Shown here piece by piece: positions 1-9,316 of a DNA stretch of 64,000 nt; within the stretch, counting starts at the first letter, position 1; every line of letters starts with the position of its first letter. This DNA comes from Alphaproteobacteria bacterium 65-37 (GTDB lineage Bacteria > Pseudomonadota > Alphaproteobacteria > Reyranellales > Reyranellaceae). A program made the position numbers and the translations under genes. Location: assembly GCA_001897995.1 (NCBI GenBank), contig MKRV01000236.1, forward strand, positions 1 through 64,000. Reading direction: 5' to 3'. The notes under the pieces were generated by a model. The model was not told the DNA's origin, searched no databases, and worked only from the letters and a program-made list of their open reading frames with translations.

Positions 1-831
1 CATCAGCTTATCGACCGGCAGGCCCGAGCGCATCCAGACCTCGGCCTGATTGAAGCGATCGCGCATGAAGTAGAGCGCTTCGACGGTGAACTCTTCGCGC
101 TCCGCCCGCTCGTGATCCGAGAGCTGCGGATAGTATTCGCGCAGCGCCATGCGGCCGAACGTGACGTGGCGCGCCTCGTCCTGCATCACGTAGGCGTTCA
201 CGGAGGCGGCCAGGTTGTTCTTTGCACTATCGCGGATGCGCTGGAAGGCGGCGAGCGCCAGTCCCTCGATCAACACCTGCATGCCGAGATAGGTCATGTC
301 CCAGCGCCGGTCGGTCAGCGTCTGCTCGAGCAGGTTCTTCAGCGAATCGGTGATCGGATAGGCCGACTTGAACTTCTCGTGGATCAGCCGCTTGTAGCTC
401 TCGACGTGGCGCGCCTCGTCCATCACCTGGGTGGCGGCATAGAACTTGGCGTTCATGTCCGGCACGGTGTTGACGATCTTCGCGGTGGCGATCAGCGCAC
501 CCTGCTCGCCGTGCATGAACTGGCAGATCGAATGGCATTGCAGGTTGAAGCGCAGCCAGTTCTTCTCCTTCTCGGTCATCTTCTCCCAGAAGGGCGAGCC
601 GTAGATCGGGATGGACTCGTCGGCCATGCCCATGGGGTTGTCTTCGAAGAGTTCCTGGCTCCAGTCGATGCGGGTGCTGGTGTCCCACTGCTGCTGCTTG
701 CCCTTTTCGTACAGGTTCAGCAGATCGGCCGAGCCGTCCTCGTATTCCCAGTTGAAAGCGATCTCGGTAGCCCCGTCGAACTTCCAGTTCGTGACCTCGA
801 CCGGCAGCTGATAGATCTTTTGCGTCGTCAT
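1..831 (-). CDS. Ferritin-like diiron protein, paralog A (3' end truncated by window edge)
   Basis: Reverse-strand reading from ATG at 831 gives MTTQKIYQLPVEVTNWKFDGATEIAFNWEYEDGSADLL... with HGEQGALIATAK and two DEARH motifs; closely similar to the protein at 3337-4404. Missed by the ORF track because it runs off the window. Confidence 0.85.
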   Translation of the reverse strand, partial: MTTQKIYQLPVEVTNWKFDGATEIAFNWEYEDGSADLLNLYEKGKQQQWDTSTRIDWSQELFEDNPMGMADESIPIYGSPFWEKMTEKEKNWLRFNLQCHSICQFMHGEQGALIATAKIVNTVPDMNAKFYAATQVMDEARHVESYKRLIHEKFKSAYPITDSLKNLLEQTLTDRRWDMTYLGMQVLIEGLALAAFQRIRDSAKNNLAASVNAYVMQDEARHVTFGRMALREYYPQLSDHERAEREEFTVEALYFMRDRFNQAEVWMRSGLPVDKLM

Positions 832-981
832 GGGCTCTTGACCTCCTGGCGCTGAACCTAGTCCCATCCCCAATGACGGAGCGGTAAACATGACGCTCCG
901 TTCATTTTTCTGAGCGGAACGTATCACAGTCTGCTAGGAGAGTCCCGTACGGAATCGGGGTTATGGAGAACGGATTTATCG

Positions 982-2004
982 ATGTCCTACAACAGCCTGC
1001 GCATCGCCAAAGTCATCCAGGAAACGCCGGATGCGCGCTCCTTCGTCCTCGAGATCCCGGCCGAGTTGGCCGAGAAATACCGCTACAAAGCGGGGCAATT
1101 CCTGACCTTCCGGGTCCCGCACGCCGACGGGGCCTTCAACCGCTGCTATTCGCTGTCCAGTGCCCCGGAAACCGACGGCCTGCCCAAAGTGACGGTGAAA
1201 CGCGTCGACGGCGGTAAAGGCTCCAACTGGTTCCACGATTCCCTCAAGGAGGGCGGCACGATCGACGTTCTGCCACCGGCCGGCCGCTTCGTGCTGGGCC
1301 AGGGTGCAGTCCCTCTGCTGCTGTTTGGCGGCGGCAGCGGCATCACGCCCATGATGTCGCTGATCAAGAGCGCCCTGACGTCGGGCAACCGGCGCGTTCG
1401 CCTGTTCTATGCCAACCGTGACAAGCCCTCGATCATCTTCGACGCCGAGTTCGAGGCCCTGGCGACGGCGCATCCCGGCCGGCTGGAAGTCATCCACCAT
1501 CTCGACGCGGTGCAGGGCCTTACCAGGCCCGAGGAGGTCGCCGCCGCGCTCAAGGGCTTCGAGACTGCCGAGGCCTATCTCTGCGGCCCGGGCCCGTTCA
1601 TGAATCTGGTCGAGGCTGCCCTGCTCGCCGCCGGCATGCCGCGCGAGCGTGTGCTGATCGAGCGTTTCGAAGCGTCGGGCAACGATGCCGTGCCGGTCGA
1701 AGCGCCGGAAGAAGGCGACGTGATCCCGGACGAGATCACCATCCATTTCGAAGGCAAGGCGCACAAAGTCCCCTACCGCAAGGGCCTCACCATCCTCGAA
1801 GCGGCGCGCGGCGCGGGCCTCAACCCGTTGTCGTCGTGCGAGGAGGGGTTCTGCGCGTCCTGCGCGGCCAAGCGCGTCAAGGGTAAGGTCGTTCTGGCCA
1901 AGAACGACATCTATACCGAGGACGATCTCGCCAATAACTGGATCCTGACCTGCCAGGGCCACTGCTTCGGCCCTGAAGTCGAGATCACCTACGACGTGGT
2001 GTAG
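982..2004 (+). CDS. FAD/2Fe-2S ferredoxin-NAD(P)H reductase, PaaE/KshB-like
   Basis: FNR-type N-terminal domain and C-terminal plant-type 2Fe-2S motif SSCEEGFCASC...LTCQGHC. Confidence 0.9.
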   Translation: MSYNSLRIAKVIQETPDARSFVLEIPAELAEKYRYKAGQFLTFRVPHADGAFNRCYSLSSAPETDGLPKVTVKRVDGGKGSNWFHDSLKEGGTIDVLPPAGRFVLGQGAVPLLLFGGGSGITPMMSLIKSALTSGNRRVRLFYANRDKPSIIFDAEFEALATAHPGRLEVIHHLDAVQGLTRPEEVAAALKGFETAEAYLCGPGPFMNLVEAALLAAGMPRERVLIERFEASGNDAVPVEAPEEGDVIPDEITIHFEGKAHKVPYRKGLTILEAARGAGLNPLSSCEEGFCASCAAKRVKGKVVLAKNDIYTEDDLANNWILTCQGHCFGPEVEITYDVV

Positions 2005-2069
2005 CGATTAACGCCAAGCCGATCGCCCAGGCGACGCTCCTGACGGTCGTCGCCGGCATCGCCGACTCG

Positions 2070-2663
2070 GTGGGCTATATCACCATGGGCGGCGTCTTCG
2101 CCGCAAACATGACCGGCAACACGGTGCTGGCCGGCATCGACCTCGCCAAGGGTGACCAGCTCGGCGCCTGGTATCATCTCACACCGCTGGTCGCCTTCTT
2201 CCCCGGCGCCATGCTGGCCCGAGCGCTGCACCTTCTCCTGAAGGCGCCGACCGTGGGCCTGCTGCTCGAGGCGGCAATCATCGCCGCGGTCGGCTTCGTC
2301 GATATCGGCCCCGAGCCCTCGGTGATGGTGGTGGCCTTCGCCATGGGCATCCAGGCCTCGGTGATCACCAGCTTCGCCGGCAACTCGGTCAGCACCGTCG
2401 TGGTGACCAGCACGCTCGCCCGCACCGCCGACACCGTGGTCGACCGGCTCTGGCCGAGCGCCACTGTAAAGCCCCCGTCCACGGTCAACACGCTGCTGCT
2501 TACGCTCACCTGGACCGGCTATCTCCTGGGCGCCCTGATCGGCGCGCTGCTGGTGCCGCGGATGGCCCAGCCGCTGCTCGTGCCGGCTGCACTGCTGCTG
2601 GCCGTCGTCCTGCTCGGGCCCCTCTTCGGCTCGCCTGCGCCGCGGCCTACATCGGCGGCATGA
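2070..2663 (+). CDS. YoaK/DUF1275 family membrane protein (start probably further upstream)
   Basis: GYITMGGVFAANMTGNTVL motif and multiple TM segments. The in-frame sequence upstream of 2070 (TLLTVVAGIADSV) looks like genuine family N-terminus, so the start is uncertain (near 2007). Confidence 0.8.
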   Translation: MGYITMGGVFAANMTGNTVLAGIDLAKGDQLGAWYHLTPLVAFFPGAMLARALHLLLKAPTVGLLLEAAIIAAVGFVDIGPEPSVMVVAFAMGIQASVITSFAGNSVSTVVVTSTLARTADTVVDRLWPSATVKPPSTVNTLLLTLTWTGYLLGALIGALLVPRMAQPLLVPAALLLAVVLLGPLFGSPAPRPTSAA

Positions 2664-3261
2664 GACCGTTCTTGCCGTAGGTCAGGCGCGAGGTTTCGAG
2701 CGCGCCGTCGGGCCGCTTGCGGGCGGCAGAGACGAAGATCCCCGTACCGGCGACGAGGTCGGCCTTGTCGCCCGGTGCAAAGGCGACCACGACGGTCTCG
2801 GGCGTCACCACCAGTTTCTTCTCGCCGTCGCGGTACTTTACCGTCAGGACCTCGCCGTCGCGGCCGGTGACCTTCTGCTCGACATTGGCGTTGGTCATGG
2901 TGGTCTGCGGCTGCAGGTCCCACGGGCGATGGCCGTCGCCCGTGCCGCGCATCGCCTCGGGAAAGATGTGGATCTCGATCGCGCGCTGGCTGCCGTCGGC
3001 CTGTGGCATCCCGCTGGCGCCGAGATAGGTGCCTGGCTTGATGTCGGCCAGGCTCGCTTTCACCACTGCCGTGACCATGGTGTCGGCGGCCGTCACGATC
3101 TTCACTTCGTCGCCGTCGCGCGTCTTCACCAGGAGTGCAGGCCCTTCGACCTTCTCGATCGTGCCGCGCACGCGCACGGCTTCCTGGGCATGCAGCGCCG
3201 GGGCGAGAATGCAGACGGAAAGAAGCGACAGGAGAGCGGAACGGCGCGATACACGAAACAT
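2647..3261 (-). CDS. Secreted hypothetical protein (DUF5666-like)
   Basis: Signal peptide MFRVSRRSALLSLLSVCILAPALHAQ; short beta-rich domain. Converges with the DUF1275 gene, 17 bp overlap. Confidence 0.65.
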   Translation of the reverse strand: MFRVSRRSALLSLLSVCILAPALHAQEAVRVRGTIEKVEGPALLVKTRDGDEVKIVTAADTMVTAVVKASLADIKPGTYLGASGMPQADGSQRAIEIHIFPEAMRGTGDGHRPWDLQPQTTMTNANVEQKVTGRDGEVLTVKYRDGEKKLVVTPETVVVAFAPGDKADLVAGTGIFVSAARKRPDGALETSRLTYGKNGLMPPM

Positions 3262-3336
3262 GGGCGGCCTCCCAAGGAAGACCGCACGCTATCGCATCGC
3301 GCCGTCGCGGCGGATCAACAGGCGGTGACCGGCAGG

Positions 3337-4404
3337 TTACTCCGCCGCGATCGCCCGCTCGACGAACATCTTCTTGTCGAACTCCTCGGCAACCTTGCCG
3401 TCATTGGCGAGCTGCTCGGAGACGTCGATCTTGGCGTATTCCATCACACCCATCTCGCCGAACGCCTTCTGCACCCGGGGGCCCCACAGGCCGATATCCT
3501 TGACCGTGGGCACGACGCGGCTGAACAGCCGGCCGCGGAAGGAGTTCATTTGCTTGGAATTGTAGTGGATGTCGTCTAGCACCTTGGCAGGAAGGCCGAG
3601 CCGCTCCCACACTTCCGACTGGTTGAAGCGATCGCGCATGAAATAAAGCGCCTCGACCACGAACTCCTCGCGCTCGTCGCGCTCGGCATCCGACAGATGC
3701 GGATAGTACTCGCGCAGCGCCAGCCGGCCGAACGATACGTGGCGCGCCTCGTCCTGCATGACATAGGCGTTGACCGCGCCGGCCAGCGTGTTGCCCGACT
3801 TGTCGCGGATCGATTGGAAGGCGGCGAGCGCCAGGCCTTCGATCAGCACCTGCATGCCGAGATAGGTCATGTCCCAGCGACGATCCGTCAGGGTCTGCTC
3901 GAGAAGCTTCTGCAGCGCCTTGTTGATCGGATAGGCGAGCTGGAACTTCTCGTGCAGCAGGCGCTTGTAGGCTTCGACGTGACGGGCCTCGTCCATCACC
4001 TGCGTGGCAGCGTAGAATTTGGCATTCATGTCGGGCACGGTGCCGACGATTTTGGCGGTGGCGATCAGCGCACCTTGCTCGCCGTGCATGAACTGCGAGA
4101 TCGAATTGGCCTGGAGATGGTGGCGTAGCCAGCTCTTCTCCTTGTCGGTCATCTTCTCCCAGTACTCGGTGCCGTAGATCGAGATGGCCTCGTCCTTGAG
4201 CTCCATCGGATTGTCCGGGTTCAGCTCCATCGACCAGTCGAGCCGCGTGCTGGCGTCCCACTGCTGCTGCTTGCCCTTCTCGTAGAGGGTCAGCAGCTCG
4301 GCCGAGCCGTCCTCGTACTCCCAGTTGAACTGCAGCTCCGTGGCACCGTCGAACTTCCACTGAGTTACGTCGACAGGCAGGGAATAGATCCGTTGCGTGC
4401 TCAT
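3337..4404 (-). CDS. Ferritin-like diiron protein, paralog B
   Basis: 355 aa; candidate ligands E109, E139/H142 (DEARH), E189, E219/H222 (DEARH). Confidence 0.88.
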   Translation of the reverse strand: MSTQRIYSLPVDVTQWKFDGATELQFNWEYEDGSAELLTLYEKGKQQQWDASTRLDWSMELNPDNPMELKDEAISIYGTEYWEKMTDKEKSWLRHHLQANSISQFMHGEQGALIATAKIVGTVPDMNAKFYAATQVMDEARHVEAYKRLLHEKFQLAYPINKALQKLLEQTLTDRRWDMTYLGMQVLIEGLALAAFQSIRDKSGNTLAGAVNAYVMQDEARHVSFGRLALREYYPHLSDAERDEREEFVVEALYFMRDRFNQSEVWERLGLPAKVLDDIHYNSKQMNSFRGRLFSRVVPTVKDIGLWGPRVQKAFGEMGVMEYAKIDVSEQLANDGKVAEEFDKKMFVERAIAAE

Positions 4405-4507
4405 GGCGCTGCCCCTCCCGGGCTCATTCGGGTTCTCGTTACGAGAAAGATGACGCTCGTCTCATCTTCTGGCAAGTCCCCTTTGAGTCAGGGGAAATCG
4501 GACCGCA

Positions 4508-5206
4508 TCAGGGCTGGAGCCTGTAGCCGCCGCGATCGGTGATCAGGATGGCGGCGCTGGCAGGGTCCTGCTCGATCTTCTGCCGCAGACGATAAATATG
4601 GGTTTCCAGCGTGTGGGTCGTGACGCCGGCGTTGTAGCCCCAGACCTCGTTCAGCAGCACGTCGCGCGCCACCGGCCGGTCACCGGCCCGGAACAGGTAC
4701 TTCAGGATTGAGGCTTCCTTGTCGGTGAGGCGTACCTTCTTCTTGCCGGCCTTCTCCATCAGCACCTTGGCCGCTGGGTGGAATTCATAGGGGCCGATGG
4801 TCATCACCGCATCTTCGCTGCGCTCGTGCTGGCGCAGATGAGCGCGCAGCCGGGCCAGCAGCACGTTGATGCGAAACGGCTTGGTCACATAGTCGTTGGC
4901 GCCCGATTCCAGGCCGAGGATCGTGTCGGCGTCGCTGTCAGCGGCGGTCAGCATGATCACCGGCGCCCGCACGCCCTGGCGACGCATCAGCTTGCAGAGC
5001 TCGCGCCCGTCCATGTCGGGCAGGCCGACATCGAGCAGGATGGCGTCGAAATGCGCGAGCTTGGCCTTTTCCAGCCCCTCGGCAGCCGTGCCGACCTGGA
5101 TGGTCGTGAAGCCGTCATAGAGATCGAGCTGCTCCGCCAGGACGGAACGCAACGACTGGTCGTCGTCGACCAGGAGGATTTTCTTGCCGCGATTGTTTAC
5201 GGACAT
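4508..5206 (-). CDS. OmpR/PhoB-family response regulator
   Basis: KILLVDDD receiver, LLDVGLPDMDG phosphoacceptor, winged-helix C-terminus (THTLETHIYRLRQKI). Start taken at MSVNNRGKK. Confidence 0.92.
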   Translation of the reverse strand: MSVNNRGKKILLVDDDQSLRSVLAEQLDLYDGFTTIQVGTAAEGLEKAKLAHFDAILLDVGLPDMDGRELCKLMRRQGVRAPVIMLTAADSDADTILGLESGANDYVTKPFRINVLLARLRAHLRQHERSEDAVMTIGPYEFHPAAKVLMEKAGKKKVRLTDKEASILKYLFRAGDRPVARDVLLNEVWGYNAGVTTHTLETHIYRLRQKIEQDPASAAILITDRGGYRLQP

Positions 5207-5295
5207 GCCTCTGCCACCTGCAGCCGATCCCAGATTCACTCTATCCGGTACGATTTGGACACAAAAGCGGCTCACTTCAGTAAAATCGCCCGACC

Positions 5296-6474
5296 ATGGT
5301 AGAGAAAGACATGACTCCCGGTTCCGTTCACTCCCGCACTGCTTCCGCCGTCGCCGCAGTCGAGCGCGCCATGGCCGAGCTGCGCCGCGGCGGCATCGTC
5401 GTGTTGCGCGGCGCCGACGGCAGCGGTGGCCTGGTCATTGCGGCCGAATCCTGCGGCCCGCGCGCCCTGCAGCGCCTGCAGGGCCTGGCCCAGAGCGCGC
5501 CGGTGCTGGTGACCACGCGACGGCGCGCCGAGGCGATCGGCATGGAGATCCCCCCGCATATCGCCGGCAGCATGGGCGAGACCAACAAGCCGATCACCCT
5601 GGACCTGCCCCAAGGCGTTCCGGTCGACGTCATCCTGCGGCCGCACGAAGCCGAAGGGGCCGGCCGCCATGTCGCACTGCGCCATCTGTCGCGACCGGTG
5701 GCCAGCCATGCGCCGCAGATCGCCCAGGCCGCGATCGAACTCTCCAAGCTGGCGCGCCTTCTGCCCGCGGTGGTGCTGGGCCCGCTCAGCAGCGATCCCG
5801 GCAACAATCGGCGCGACTGGTCGCGTGAGCAGGACCTCATCTACGTCGATACCGCCGATGTCACCTCCTATGACGAGACGGCGTCGCGCAACCTGCAGCA
5901 GGTCGCGCAGGCGCACGTGCCGCTGGAAGGTGCGGAGAATGCCCGCATCCTGGCCTGGCGTCCGAGCGACGGCGGCAAGGAGCATCTCGCCATCGTGGTG
6001 GGCGAAATCGATCCGACGGAGCCGGTGCTGATCCGTCTCCATTCCGAGTGTTTCACCGGCGATCTGCTGGGCTCGCTGCGCTGCGATTGCGGCGTGCAGC
6101 TGCGCGGCGCCATCGCCCAGATCGCCCAGCAGGGTTCGGGAGTGCTGCTCTATCTCGCCCAGGAGGGGCGCGGCATCGGCCTGGTCAACAAGCTGCGCGC
6201 CTACGAATTGCAGGATGACGGCTTCGACACGATCGACGCCAACGAACAGCTCGGCTTCGACGCCGACGAGCGCATCTATGCGCCGGCTGCCACCATGCTG
6301 ACCCGCATGGGCATCAAGCGCGTGCGGCTGATGACCAACAACCCGGAGAAGATTGCGCAGCTCGAGCGTTACGGCGTCGAGGTTGTAGAACGCGTACAGC
6401 ATTCCTTCCCGTCGAACGGCCATAACGAGAATTATCTGCGGACCAAGGCAGAAAGGGCAGGCCACCTGCTCTAG
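5296..6474 (+). CDS. ribA: GTP cyclohydrolase II with N-terminal extension
   Basis: HSECFTGDLLGSLRCDCGVQL, EGRGIGLVNKLRAYELQD, LMTNNPEKI motifs. Confidence 0.93.
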   Translation: MVEKDMTPGSVHSRTASAVAAVERAMAELRRGGIVVLRGADGSGGLVIAAESCGPRALQRLQGLAQSAPVLVTTRRRAEAIGMEIPPHIAGSMGETNKPITLDLPQGVPVDVILRPHEAEGAGRHVALRHLSRPVASHAPQIAQAAIELSKLARLLPAVVLGPLSSDPGNNRRDWSREQDLIYVDTADVTSYDETASRNLQQVAQAHVPLEGAENARILAWRPSDGGKEHLAIVVGEIDPTEPVLIRLHSECFTGDLLGSLRCDCGVQLRGAIAQIAQQGSGVLLYLAQEGRGIGLVNKLRAYELQDDGFDTIDANEQLGFDADERIYAPAATMLTRMGIKRVRLMTNNPEKIAQLERYGVEVVERVQHSFPSNGHNENYLRTKAERAGHLL

Positions 6475-6502
6475 GCAAAAAAGACGACTGGAGGGAACGC
6501 CA

Positions 6503-7723
6503 ATGACCAAGCTCAATCGCCGCGCTTTTGCGGCCGGAAGCGCTGCGCTCGTCTTCGCCCCGGCGATCGTGCGCGCCCAGAAGAAATACGACCCGGGCGC
6601 CAGCGACACCGAGATCAGGCTCGGTCACACCAATCCCTACAGTGGCCCGCTCTCGGCCTACGGAGTGATCGGCAAAGCCGAGACCGCCTATTGGCAGGCG
6701 GTCAACGACAAGGGCGGCATCAACGGCCGCAAGGTGAACTTCATCACCTACGACGACGGCTATTCGCCGCCCAAGACCGTCGAGATGGTGCGCAAGCTGG
6801 TCGAGGACGACAAGGTCCTGGCGATCTTCCAGCTGCTGGGAACGCCGACCAACACGGTCGTTCACAAATATCTGAACCAGAAGAAGGTGCCGCAGCTCTT
6901 CGTGGCGACCGGTGCCTCCAAGTGGGGCGACCCCAAGAACTTCCCCTGGACCATGGGCTGGCAGCCCGACTACGCGACCGAGGGCGGCATCTATGCCAAG
7001 CACATCCTCGCCCAGCACAAGGGCGAGAAGATCGCCGTCCTCTGGCAGAACGACGATTCGGGAAAGGACTATGTCGCGGGCTTCATGAAGGGCCTGGGCA
7101 AGGACAACGAGAAGATGGTGGTGGCCTCGGTGAGCTACGAAGTCACCGATCCCACGGTCGACAGCCAGATCATCCAGCTCAAGAACTCAGGCGCCACGGT
7201 GTTTTTCAACGACGCGGCGCCCAAGGCCGCCGCGCAGGCCATCCGCAAGGTCGCCGACCTCGGCTGGAAGCCGGCACACTATCTCACCAACGTCTCGGCC
7301 TCGGTCACCTCGGTCCTGAAGCCCGCCGGCTTCGATGCCAGCCAGGGCATCATCACGGCGGCCTATCTCAAGGACCCGACCGATCCGCAATGGGCCACCG
7401 CGCCCGATTTCATCGAATGGAAGGCCTGGATGGCCAAGTACCATCCGACCGCCAATCCGTCGGACTCGTTCAACGCCTACGCCTATGCCGTCTGCGCCAC
7501 CATGCACGACTGCCTGAAGCGCTGCGGCGATGAGCTGACGCGCGAAAACCTGATGAAGCAGGCGGCCAGCATGAAACGGCTCGTCGTGCCGATGCTGCTG
7601 CCTGGCATCACCATCAACACCAGCGCTACCGACTACTATCCCATCCAGGCGGTGCGCCTGCAGCGCTTCAAGGGCGAGACCTGGGACCTGTTCGGCGATG
7701 TGTTGAGCAACGAAAGCGCCTGA
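6503..7723 (+). CDS. Branched-chain amino acid-type ABC substrate-binding protein (LivK-like)
   Basis: Signal NRRAFAAGSAALVFAPAIVRAQ; periplasmic binding protein fold (IRLGHTNPYSGPLSAYGVIGKAETAYWQAVNDKGGINGRKV). Confidence 0.9.
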   Translation: MTKLNRRAFAAGSAALVFAPAIVRAQKKYDPGASDTEIRLGHTNPYSGPLSAYGVIGKAETAYWQAVNDKGGINGRKVNFITYDDGYSPPKTVEMVRKLVEDDKVLAIFQLLGTPTNTVVHKYLNQKKVPQLFVATGASKWGDPKNFPWTMGWQPDYATEGGIYAKHILAQHKGEKIAVLWQNDDSGKDYVAGFMKGLGKDNEKMVVASVSYEVTDPTVDSQIIQLKNSGATVFFNDAAPKAAAQAIRKVADLGWKPAHYLTNVSASVTSVLKPAGFDASQGIITAAYLKDPTDPQWATAPDFIEWKAWMAKYHPTANPSDSFNAYAYAVCATMHDCLKRCGDELTRENLMKQAASMKRLVVPMLLPGITINTSATDYYPIQAVRLQRFKGETWDLFGDVLSNESA

Positions 7724-7852
7724 GTCCGACCGTCGGGCGTGCCCCGAAGACGGGGCGTGCGTCAGACTGACGCGCATCCCGACAATTGCCGGGCGAAACG
7801 GGCCCGGGAGATGCTTAGTTCGGTCGATGACTGAGCCTCGCATCCACACCCG

Positions 7853-9316
7853 ATGCCCTTTCGCCTGACTCGTCGCGCCTGGATGACCGGCGCCGGCGCA
7901 GCGGCCCTCGCGGCCACTGCCTACGGCGCCGCGTCGACAACAACCCGAACCCGGTCGGCGGTGCCGCGCGGCGCGGCGGCATTCCCGGATGGTTTTCGCT
8001 GGGGCACCGCGACGTCGGCCTATCAGGTCGAAGGAGCGGCCACGGAAGACGGCCGCGGGCCGTCGATCTGGGACACCTTCGCCCGACAGCCCGGCCGCAT
8101 TCGCGACGGCTCGACCGGCGAGACCAGCGTCGACCACTATCATCGCTACAAGGAAGACGTCGCCCTGATGAAGTGGATGGGCGCGCAGGCCTATCGCTTC
8201 TCGATCGCCTGGCCGCGCGTCTTCCCCGAGGGCCGTGGCAAGCCGAACCCGAAGGGCCTCGATTTCTACGATCGCCTGGTCGACGAGCTGCTTGCCGCCG
8301 GCATCGAACCCTACGCGACACTGTACCATTGGGATCTGCCGCAGGCGCTGCAGGATCGCGGCGGCTGGGAGGCTCGCGACACCGCCGAAGCTTTCGGCGA
8401 CTACGCGTCCTACATCGCGGGCAAGCTGACCGACCGCGTGAAGCAGGTCTTCACAATCAACGAGATGCTGAGTTTCGTCGAGCACGGCCACGCCAGCGGT
8501 ATCTTCGCCCCGGGCCTCAAGCTCGATCGCGCGCGCCTCAACCAGGTTCGCCATCACGCGGTGCTGGCACACGGGCTTGCAGTCCAAGCCATCCGCGCCT
8601 CCGGCCGGCGCGGCACCAGGGTCGGTCCGGCCGAGAACATCGCCGCCGCCTTGCCCGCCATCGAAACGGTCGAGAACATCCGCGCCGCCGAGCTTGCGAC
8701 GCGCGAGCTGAACGCGCCCTATCTCACGGTGATGCTGGAGGGCCGCTACACCGACGCCTATCTCGCCAATGCCGGTGCTGATGCGCCGCGCTTCACGCCG
8801 CAGGACCTGAAAACCATCTCGAGCGAGGTCGATTTCGTCGGCCTCAACGTCTACGCGCCCAGCAAATACGTCCTGGCCAGCGAAGCCGCCCCCGGCTTCA
8901 CCGAAGTGCCGCTACAGGCCTCGCATCCGCACATGGCCTCGCCGTGGCTGACTCTGGGCCCCGAGGCGCTCTACTGGGCGCCGCGCCTCGCCGCCAGCCT
9001 TTGGAAGGTGAAGGAGATCTTCATCACCGAGAACGGCGCGTCAGCCGCCGACGAGCCGGCCGCCGACGGCACGGTCTACGACGTCGACCGCGTGATGTAT
9101 CTGCGCAATTGCCTGATGCATCTGCAGCGCGCGACCGCCGAAGGCGTGCCGGTACGCGGCTATTTCCTGTGGAGCCTGCTCGACAATTTCGAATGGGCGG
9201 ACGGCTATGCGACGCGTTTCGGCGTGGTCCATGTCGACTACGCCACGCAGAAGCGGACCCCCAAGCTCAGCGCCTCGTTCTACCGCGAAGTGATCGCCCG
9301 CAACGCCCCGGCCTGA
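7853..9316 (+). CDS. Glycoside hydrolase family 1 beta-glucosidase, Tat-type signal
   Basis: FPDGFRWGTATSAYQVEGA, TINE acid/base motif, ITENG nucleophile motif; RRAWMTGAGAAAL leader. Confidence 0.93.
   Translation: MPFRLTRRAWMTGAGAAALAATAYGAASTTTRTRSAVPRGAAAFPDGFRWGTATSAYQVEGAATEDGRGPSIWDTFARQPGRIRDGSTGETSVDHYHRYKEDVALMKWMGAQAYRFSIAWPRVFPEGRGKPNPKGLDFYDRLVDELLAAGIEPYATLYHWDLPQALQDRGGWEARDTAEAFGDYASYIAGKLTDRVKQVFTINEMLSFVEHGHASGIFAPGLKLDRARLNQVRHHAVLAHGLAVQAIRASGRRGTRVGPAENIAAALPAIETVENIRAAELATRELNAPYLTVMLEGRYTDAYLANAGADAPRFTPQDLKTISSEVDFVGLNVYAPSKYVLASEAAPGFTEVPLQASHPHMASPWLTLGPEALYWAPRLAASLWKVKEIFITENGASAADEPAADGTVYDVDRVMYLRNCLMHLQRATAEGVPVRGYFLWSLLDNFEWADGYATRFGVVHVDYATQKRTPKLSASFYREVIARNAPA

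Follow-up and report, generated by a model that had tools for sequence, protein, structure and literature searches.

The window (the whole stretch of DNA analysed here) comprises the first 64 kb of the 164-kb contig C236 from the 7.1-Mb draft genome of Alphaproteobacteria bacterium 65-37, with window base 1 being contig base 1. By name, the nearest relatives are Reyranella, Enhydrobacter aerosaccus and Rhodospirillales metagenome-assembled genomes (MAGs), which places the organism within or next to Reyranella, a genus of soil and water bacteria. The analysis concerned two predicted ferritin-like dimetal oxygenases, here named A and B, and a reductase, here named Red, which are encoded at the left end of the window. 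The gene for A is located on the minus strand at 1–831, where the contig end cuts off the C-terminal 78 residues; intact A orthologues have 355 aa. Red, with FAD, NAD(P) and C-terminal 2Fe-2S domains, is encoded on the plus strand at 982–2004, and B, a protein of 355 aa, on the minus strand at 3337–4404. A and B were 79% identical over 274 shared residues and are close paralogues, as a preliminary description of this DNA had stated. The same description had placed Red between the two paralogues and divergent from A. The divergent arrangement was confirmed, with a gap of 150 bp, but a DUF1275 gene and a DUF5666-like gene also separate Red from B, so that Red adjoins A and is not directly flanked by both paralogues. 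Promoter comparison revealed a putative operator ahead of each oxygenase gene: TGAACGGAGCGTCAT at 890–904 (minus strand), with the core TGA-N8-TCA and within the divergent promoter of A and Red, and ATGAGACGAGCGTCAT at 4450–4465 (minus strand), with an identical core.

Metal ligands and predicted fold of A and B

The spacing E109-x29-E139-x2-H142 ... E189-x29-E219-x2-H222 that had been read from B was found to be exact. All six predicted ligands were invariant in 30 A and 28 B orthologues, in 41 homologues of at least 50% identity and in 17 homologues with identities as low as 25%, and the pattern is therefore not a matter of chance. The second-shell residues D138 and D218 were likewise invariant in the set of 41. 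An AlphaFold model of B, based on the 41-sequence alignment, had a mean pLDDT of 88.6 and a pTM of 0.88 and showed a helical ferritin-like diiron fold, with the predicted ligands on helices 87–122, 126–154, 177–202 and 206–236. The top Foldseek matches of this model were aldehyde-deformylating oxygenase (ADO), R2, R2-like ligand-binding oxidase (R2lox), CmlI and AurF, all with a probability of 1.00. As the TM-scores by query length were just 0.35–0.55, no solved structure closely matches B. A search of the PDB with the single protein as query gave marginal matches only, and a family profile aligned the six ligands in register with the E...ExxH...E...ExxH pattern of ADO and R2lox homologue II structures. 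Together with the helix placement and the profile alignment, the modelled fold suggests that the six ligands cluster at one dimetal site. Both proteins have the ligand arrangement of the ferritin-like dimetal oxygenase/oxidase (FDO) superfamily, which is E, ExxH, E and ExxH on a four-helix bundle. The diiron-type (dimetal-carboxylate) fold and ligand set proposed earlier are thus supported by ligand invariance, the AlphaFold model and the profile alignment.

Family assignment

The Pfam model AurF (PF11583) matched the partial A with 55.8 bits and B with 73.4 bits (cut-off 29.6), far below the 302 bits of an AurF-type control protein. None of the NCBIfam models scored over its cut-off for A or B. 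N-oxygenases of the FDO superfamily have a seventh ligand, which is a histidine, while two histidines and four carboxylates are the ligand set of most diiron hydroxylases (PMC13061610, PMC12101540). At the seventh-ligand position, V215 was present in 30/30 A and 28/28 B orthologues, and the valine was near-invariant across the subfamily; the AurF-type control L171 reads HVVEEARH, with a histidine where A and B have V215. By ligand set, A and B are therefore not AurF-type N-oxygenases, whose seventh ligand precedes the glutamate of the second ExxH by four residues (HxxxExxH; V215 in 58/58 orthologues). Since the third histidine of these enzymes is replaced by V215, A and B are assigned from their sequences to a 2-His/4-Glu group within the ferritin-like dimetal oxygenases. 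The ligand set and the second-shell aspartates would favour C-H chemistry over N-oxidation or halogenation.

A and B also fell outside several other classes when these were judged by their defining models or motifs. The ADO models PF11266 and TIGR04059 gave at most 19.5 bits (cut-offs 28 and 222.65), and the R2lox models NF006200 and NF006198 gave 23.5 and 21.6 bits (cut-offs 194 and 274). The QExxH and HxxDExxH motifs of CylC-type dimetal halogenases were absent, both A/B motifs being DEARH and V215 not being a histidine. For the DnfA-DnfB type, the third histidine was missing from A and B and no dnfC amidotransferase was recognised at the locus. A classical bacterial multicomponent monooxygenase (BMM) was rejected as the Phenol_Hydrox/MmoX-type hydroxylase model PF02332 remained under its cut-off for A and B and no further subunits were encoded nearby; a scan of the window's genome found no PF02332 hydroxylase. 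Neither PaaA nor PaaC was present at the locus, which excludes PaaABCDE. The earlier statement that the locus resembles neither PaaABCDE nor a classical BMM was thus corroborated. AibH1H2 was discarded as a comparison because its fold is unrelated.

Red and its pairing with A

The domains FAD_binding_6, NAD_binding_1 and a C-terminal Fer2 were found in this order in Red, all over their Pfam cut-offs, and the earlier naming of a PaaE/KshB-type reductase was upheld. The PaaE equivalog model TIGR02160 matched the whole length of Red with 211.8 bits, compared to a cut-off of 420.8.

The genes for A and Red were arranged head-to-head in 24/25 genomes of the genus. Both were absent from the exception, G020, which is 81% complete, and B was present in all 25. 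The gap between A and Red was 145–179 bp except in the sister genus (224 bp). Every Reyranella genome with a match at E ≤ 1e-30 contained one Red homologue, the copy of G018 being split over two contig ends. The separability of A and B was judged from the complete genome G016 only; G024 and G012, in which the genes are located at contig ends, were left out for that reason. In G016, 0.49 Mb separate the A-Red pair (1.75 Mb) from B (2.24 Mb).

In the sister genus (G210), a single-copy homologue was paired with Red. A single-copy oxygenase together with a Red-type reductase was also found in the DeepCast alphaproteobacterial MAG (57% and 56% identical), where an AMP-ligase gene starts 10 bp behind the Red gene, and in Burkholderiaceae bacterium 16 (60% and 44%), where a TetR gene overlaps the reductase gene. 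G067 contained a more distant pairing in the order Red-type reductase, MerR, oxygenase. The expectation that the pairing would be conserved elsewhere therefore held for the genus, the sister genus and two unrelated lineages, but not for most other members of the family, which have no adjacent Red-type reductase. Red belongs with A, and the likely functional unit is A plus Red.

A lone 234-aa PaaA/PaaC-like protein (L227, L228; G005:C87, G002:C17) is encoded elsewhere in many Reyranella genomes, in an operon with a reductase domain, a short-chain dehydrogenase/reductase and an alpha/beta hydrolase. With a reductase domain of its own, this operon does not require Red, and the possibility that Red is a displaced PaaE was rejected.

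A promoter motif common to A and B

In the last 100 bases ahead of the start codon, TGA-N8-TCA was present in 31/32 A promoters (1.4% in shuffles) and 22/29 B promoters (1.0% in shuffles), counts that are not independent because the genomes are related. The core was constant and the flanking columns were variable, and some B promoters carried the motif as a perfect palindrome, TGACGGGCCCGTCA. Its form would fit a TetR-type operator. A regulon search with TGAMCGNNNCGTCAT in ten genomes gave no recurring target aside from A and B, and hence no functional clue; upstream of homologues outside the family, merely sporadic similar palindromes were seen. Gene neighbourhoods were analysed by comparing inner and outer genes at 36 dereplicated loci. 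MerR regulators were enriched next to the gene elsewhere in the family (6 inner vs 0 outer, p = 0.01), which fits inducible, substrate-sensing control.

Relationship of the two paralogues

In a maximum-likelihood tree, A and B formed two clades, each with a support of 100/99, and the A clade also contained sequences from the sister genus and from one more Rhodospirillales MAG. By this topology, A and B are old paralogues. They were distinguished by only 22 diagnostic positions. None of these is a ligand; the C-terminal third holds most of them, and a small number are on the bundle helices. This divergence fits a changed specificity with the chemistry kept. A two-paralogue oxygenase or desaturase with its own electron donor had been proposed. 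The oxygenase and the electron donor were retained, while a two-paralogue enzyme is unproven and appears less likely, as single-copy relatives pair with the reductase. B is most likely a separable, co-regulated and specialised paralogue, and not necessarily half of a two-paralogue enzyme.

A further close paralogue, ∼72% identical to B, occurs in some Reyranella genomes (G005:C55, G006:C77, G012:C295, G013:C3). A third, distant ferritin-like protein (25–30% identical, six ligands kept) is encoded beside a purC-like gene at G000:C122 (L003:1306–2430). It has matching places in nearly all Reyranella and is common in other Alphaproteobacteria.

Neighbouring genes and homologues in other lineages

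The two genes between Red and B encode a DUF1275 membrane protein (2070–2663, plus strand; Pfam match) and a DUF5666-like secreted protein (2647–3261, minus strand; weak match under the cut-off). From the gene order in related genomes, both are variable inserts, present between Red and B in some genomes and not in others, and the DUF1275 gene is missing at this place in several relatives. Because of this variability they are probably bystanders outside the oxygenase system. On the other side of B, an OmpR-type response regulator (4508–5275, minus strand; Pfam match) is a neighbour throughout the genus, and a RibA-like protein (5296–6474, plus strand), named from sequence motifs only, is likewise constant in the gene order. 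A functional link of either to B is only conjectural.

At 16 loci (L158–L178) in Streptomyces and Actinomadura, a six-ligand relative of B has an AurF-type gene as its direct neighbour or two genes away. In L171 the pair is at 5888–6823 and 7001–8110, and the seventh-ligand histidine was checked in L171 and L178. This retention of two distinct diiron enzymes side by side deserves separate investigation. On a plasmid of Streptomyces sp. NBC_00536 (L224, NZ_CP107820.1), the gene for a homologue with 41% identity lies in an apparent natural-product cluster, which encodes AMP-ligases, carrier proteins, DAHP synthase and anthranilate synthase; genes for a PaaI thioesterase and an acyl-CoA dehydrogenase are located there as well.

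Proposed function and alternative explanations

We consider it fairly probable that A, together with Red, constitutes an NAD(P)H-dependent dimetal oxygenase of two components, either a monooxygenase or a desaturase, with B as a co-regulated paralogue that has the full ligand set. In the proposed mechanism, Red would take a hydride from NAD(P)H onto FAD, transfer the electrons to its 2Fe-2S cluster and deliver them one at a time to A, at its 2-His/4-Glu dimetal site. Once reduced, this site, with iron as the presumed metal, would activate O2, and A would then hydroxylate, desaturate or otherwise oxidise a C-H (or C-C) bond in a small metabolite, which is probably hydrophobic or of the acyl type. 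B would probably be supplied in trans by the same Red and have a different substrate preference, while a repressor-type regulator probably acts on both promoters through TGA-N8-TCA.

Several observations weigh against this proposal. Most homologues from outside the genus lack a neighbouring Red-type reductase and must therefore receive electrons from other donors; outside Reyranellaceae the pairing was found in only ∼3 lineages, and the comparison of inner and outer neighbours for Red was not significant (2 vs 0, p = 0.22). No regulator of the TGA-N8-TCA motif was identified, and the motif could belong to the core promoter. The metal could be Mn/Fe instead of Fe/Fe. Enrichment of acyl-CoA genes was weak (enoyl-CoA hydratase 5 vs 1, p = 0.08; acyl-CoA dehydrogenase p = 0.29; AMP-ligase none), which makes the substrate class speculative. 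In the literature, no characterised close member of the A/B family and no biochemical data were found.

A and B might instead be N-oxygenases of the AurF/CmlI/DnfA type, which oxidise amines, hydroxylamines or hydrazones, with Red as the counterpart of DnfB. AurF is the best Pfam model, over its cut-off, and Alcaligenes offers a known example in which an AurF-like protein, DnfA, is combined with a FAD/2Fe-2S reductase, DnfB (PMC9478400). This explanation is nevertheless improbable, as the seventh-ligand histidine (PMC13061610, PMC12101540) is V215 in all 58 A and B orthologues, while a true AurF-type relative in the survey carries HVVEEARH. We regard as equally doubtful an R2lox-like role of A and B, as ligand-binding oxidases or in a stress response, in which Red keeps the site reduced, be it with an Mn/Fe site, a single turnover or a rubrerythrin-like reduction of peroxide. 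R2lox was among the profile and fold matches, but the NCBIfam R2lox model scored 23.5 bits against a cut-off of 194, and the dedicated reductase and the regulated promoter suggest catalytic turnover.

An arrangement of A and B as obligate alpha and beta partners of one heteromeric oxygenase seems a little less probable still. Both genes are present in nearly all Reyranella genomes, usually adjacent, and have the promoter motif in common. The beta subunits of BMMs lose their metal ligands, however, whereas A and B both retain every ligand; one oxygenase copy accompanies Red in G210, in the DeepCast MAG and in Burkholderiaceae bacterium 16, and 0.49 Mb separate A and B in the complete genome G016. 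The pairing of single-copy relatives with the reductase makes an obligate A-B heteromer unlikely. A reaction on fatty acyl thioesters or aldehydes, as carried out by ADO or BioE and leading to hydroxylation, desaturation or cleavage of the chain, is a narrower form of the two-component oxygenase proposal and does not exclude it; we see it as a possibility worth keeping, though short of an even chance. ADO was the best profile and fold match, and long-chain acyl-ACP/CoA is oxidised by BioE, an FDO with six ligands that requires NADH plus phenazine methosulfate (PMC12915131). An acyl substrate would also agree with the AMP-ligase gene 10 bp after the Red gene in the DeepCast MAG, the acyl-related genes around the 41% homologue on the Streptomyces plasmid and the enoyl-CoA hydratases near 5 of the 36 dereplicated loci. 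On the other hand, the enrichment of acyl-CoA genes was not significant, A and B have 355 aa compared to ∼230 for ADO, and the Reyranella locus has no adjoining acyl-CoA gene. The link to acyl-thioester metabolism is therefore weak, with no single hint being decisive.

Significance

As judged from their sequences, A and B are a well-defined, so far uncharacterised variant of the ferritin-like dimetal oxygenases with a reductase partner that is conserved throughout the genus. New in this analysis are the genus-wide A-Red pairing, the single Red, the separation of A and B in G016, the two old clades and the TGA-N8-TCA motif common to both promoters. The family is found in Pseudomonadota, Actinomycetota, Chloroflexota, Acidobacteriota and others. 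We tentatively suggest that A and B represent a widespread six-ligand family which, in Reyranellaceae, could serve as a minimal two-component soluble C-H monooxygenase with two co-regulated paralogues and one reductase. If true, a single hydroxylase polypeptide and a reductase would suffice, without extra subunits or a coupling protein. A simple soluble monooxygenase might also be obtained from A-Red. Current annotations read 'ferritin-like domain-containing protein' or 'diiron oxygenase', and the Pfam name AurF would point to N-oxygenation; the absence of the third histidine speaks against this name for the subfamily as a whole. Since the gene for the likely electron donor lies beside A, the Reyranella pair offers a practical entry to the substrate of a large group of oxygenases.

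Comparison with known systems

A and B are similar to AurF, CmlI and Dob3 in that AurF is the nearest Pfam family and that all have the four-helix ferritin-like diiron fold with ExxH...ExxH. They also have a second-shell aspartate ahead of each ExxH, D138 and D218 corresponding to D135 and D226 of AurF (PMC12101540). In contrast to this group, A and B have V215 in place of the third histidine, and they are 22–25% identical to the AurF-type controls, with TM-scores of 0.45–0.50 by query length. The Dirammox hydroxylamine oxidase DnfA and its reductase DnfB from Alcaligenes likewise combine an AurF-like diiron protein with a FAD/2Fe-2S NADH reductase, but DnfA has seven ligands including three histidines, and the dnfABC cluster contains an amidotransferase (PMC9478400) that was not recognised at the A-Red locus. 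The halogenases CylC and NocO have an AurF-like diiron fold as well; they carry QExxH and HxxDExxH (PMC12101540), whereas both motifs of A and B are DExxH and the additional histidine is missing.

The six ligands of cyanobacterial ADO, the top PDB profile and Foldseek match, align one to one with those of A and B, but ADO is a shorter protein from a different Pfam family, the model of which scored far under its cut-off for A and B. BioE, which cleaves acyl-ACP/CoA, has the six-ligand set, the E-x29-ExxH spacing in its second half and a requirement for an external reductant. Compared by description only, it differs in being a smaller protein by its residue numbering, and no biotin gene was recognised beside the Reyranella locus. 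Red has the domain order of PaaE and KshB, with FAD, NAD and C-terminal 2Fe-2S domains and a full-length TIGR02160 match, but it reached about half of the cut-off score and is encoded with a diiron protein, not with PaaABC or a Rieske oxygenase.

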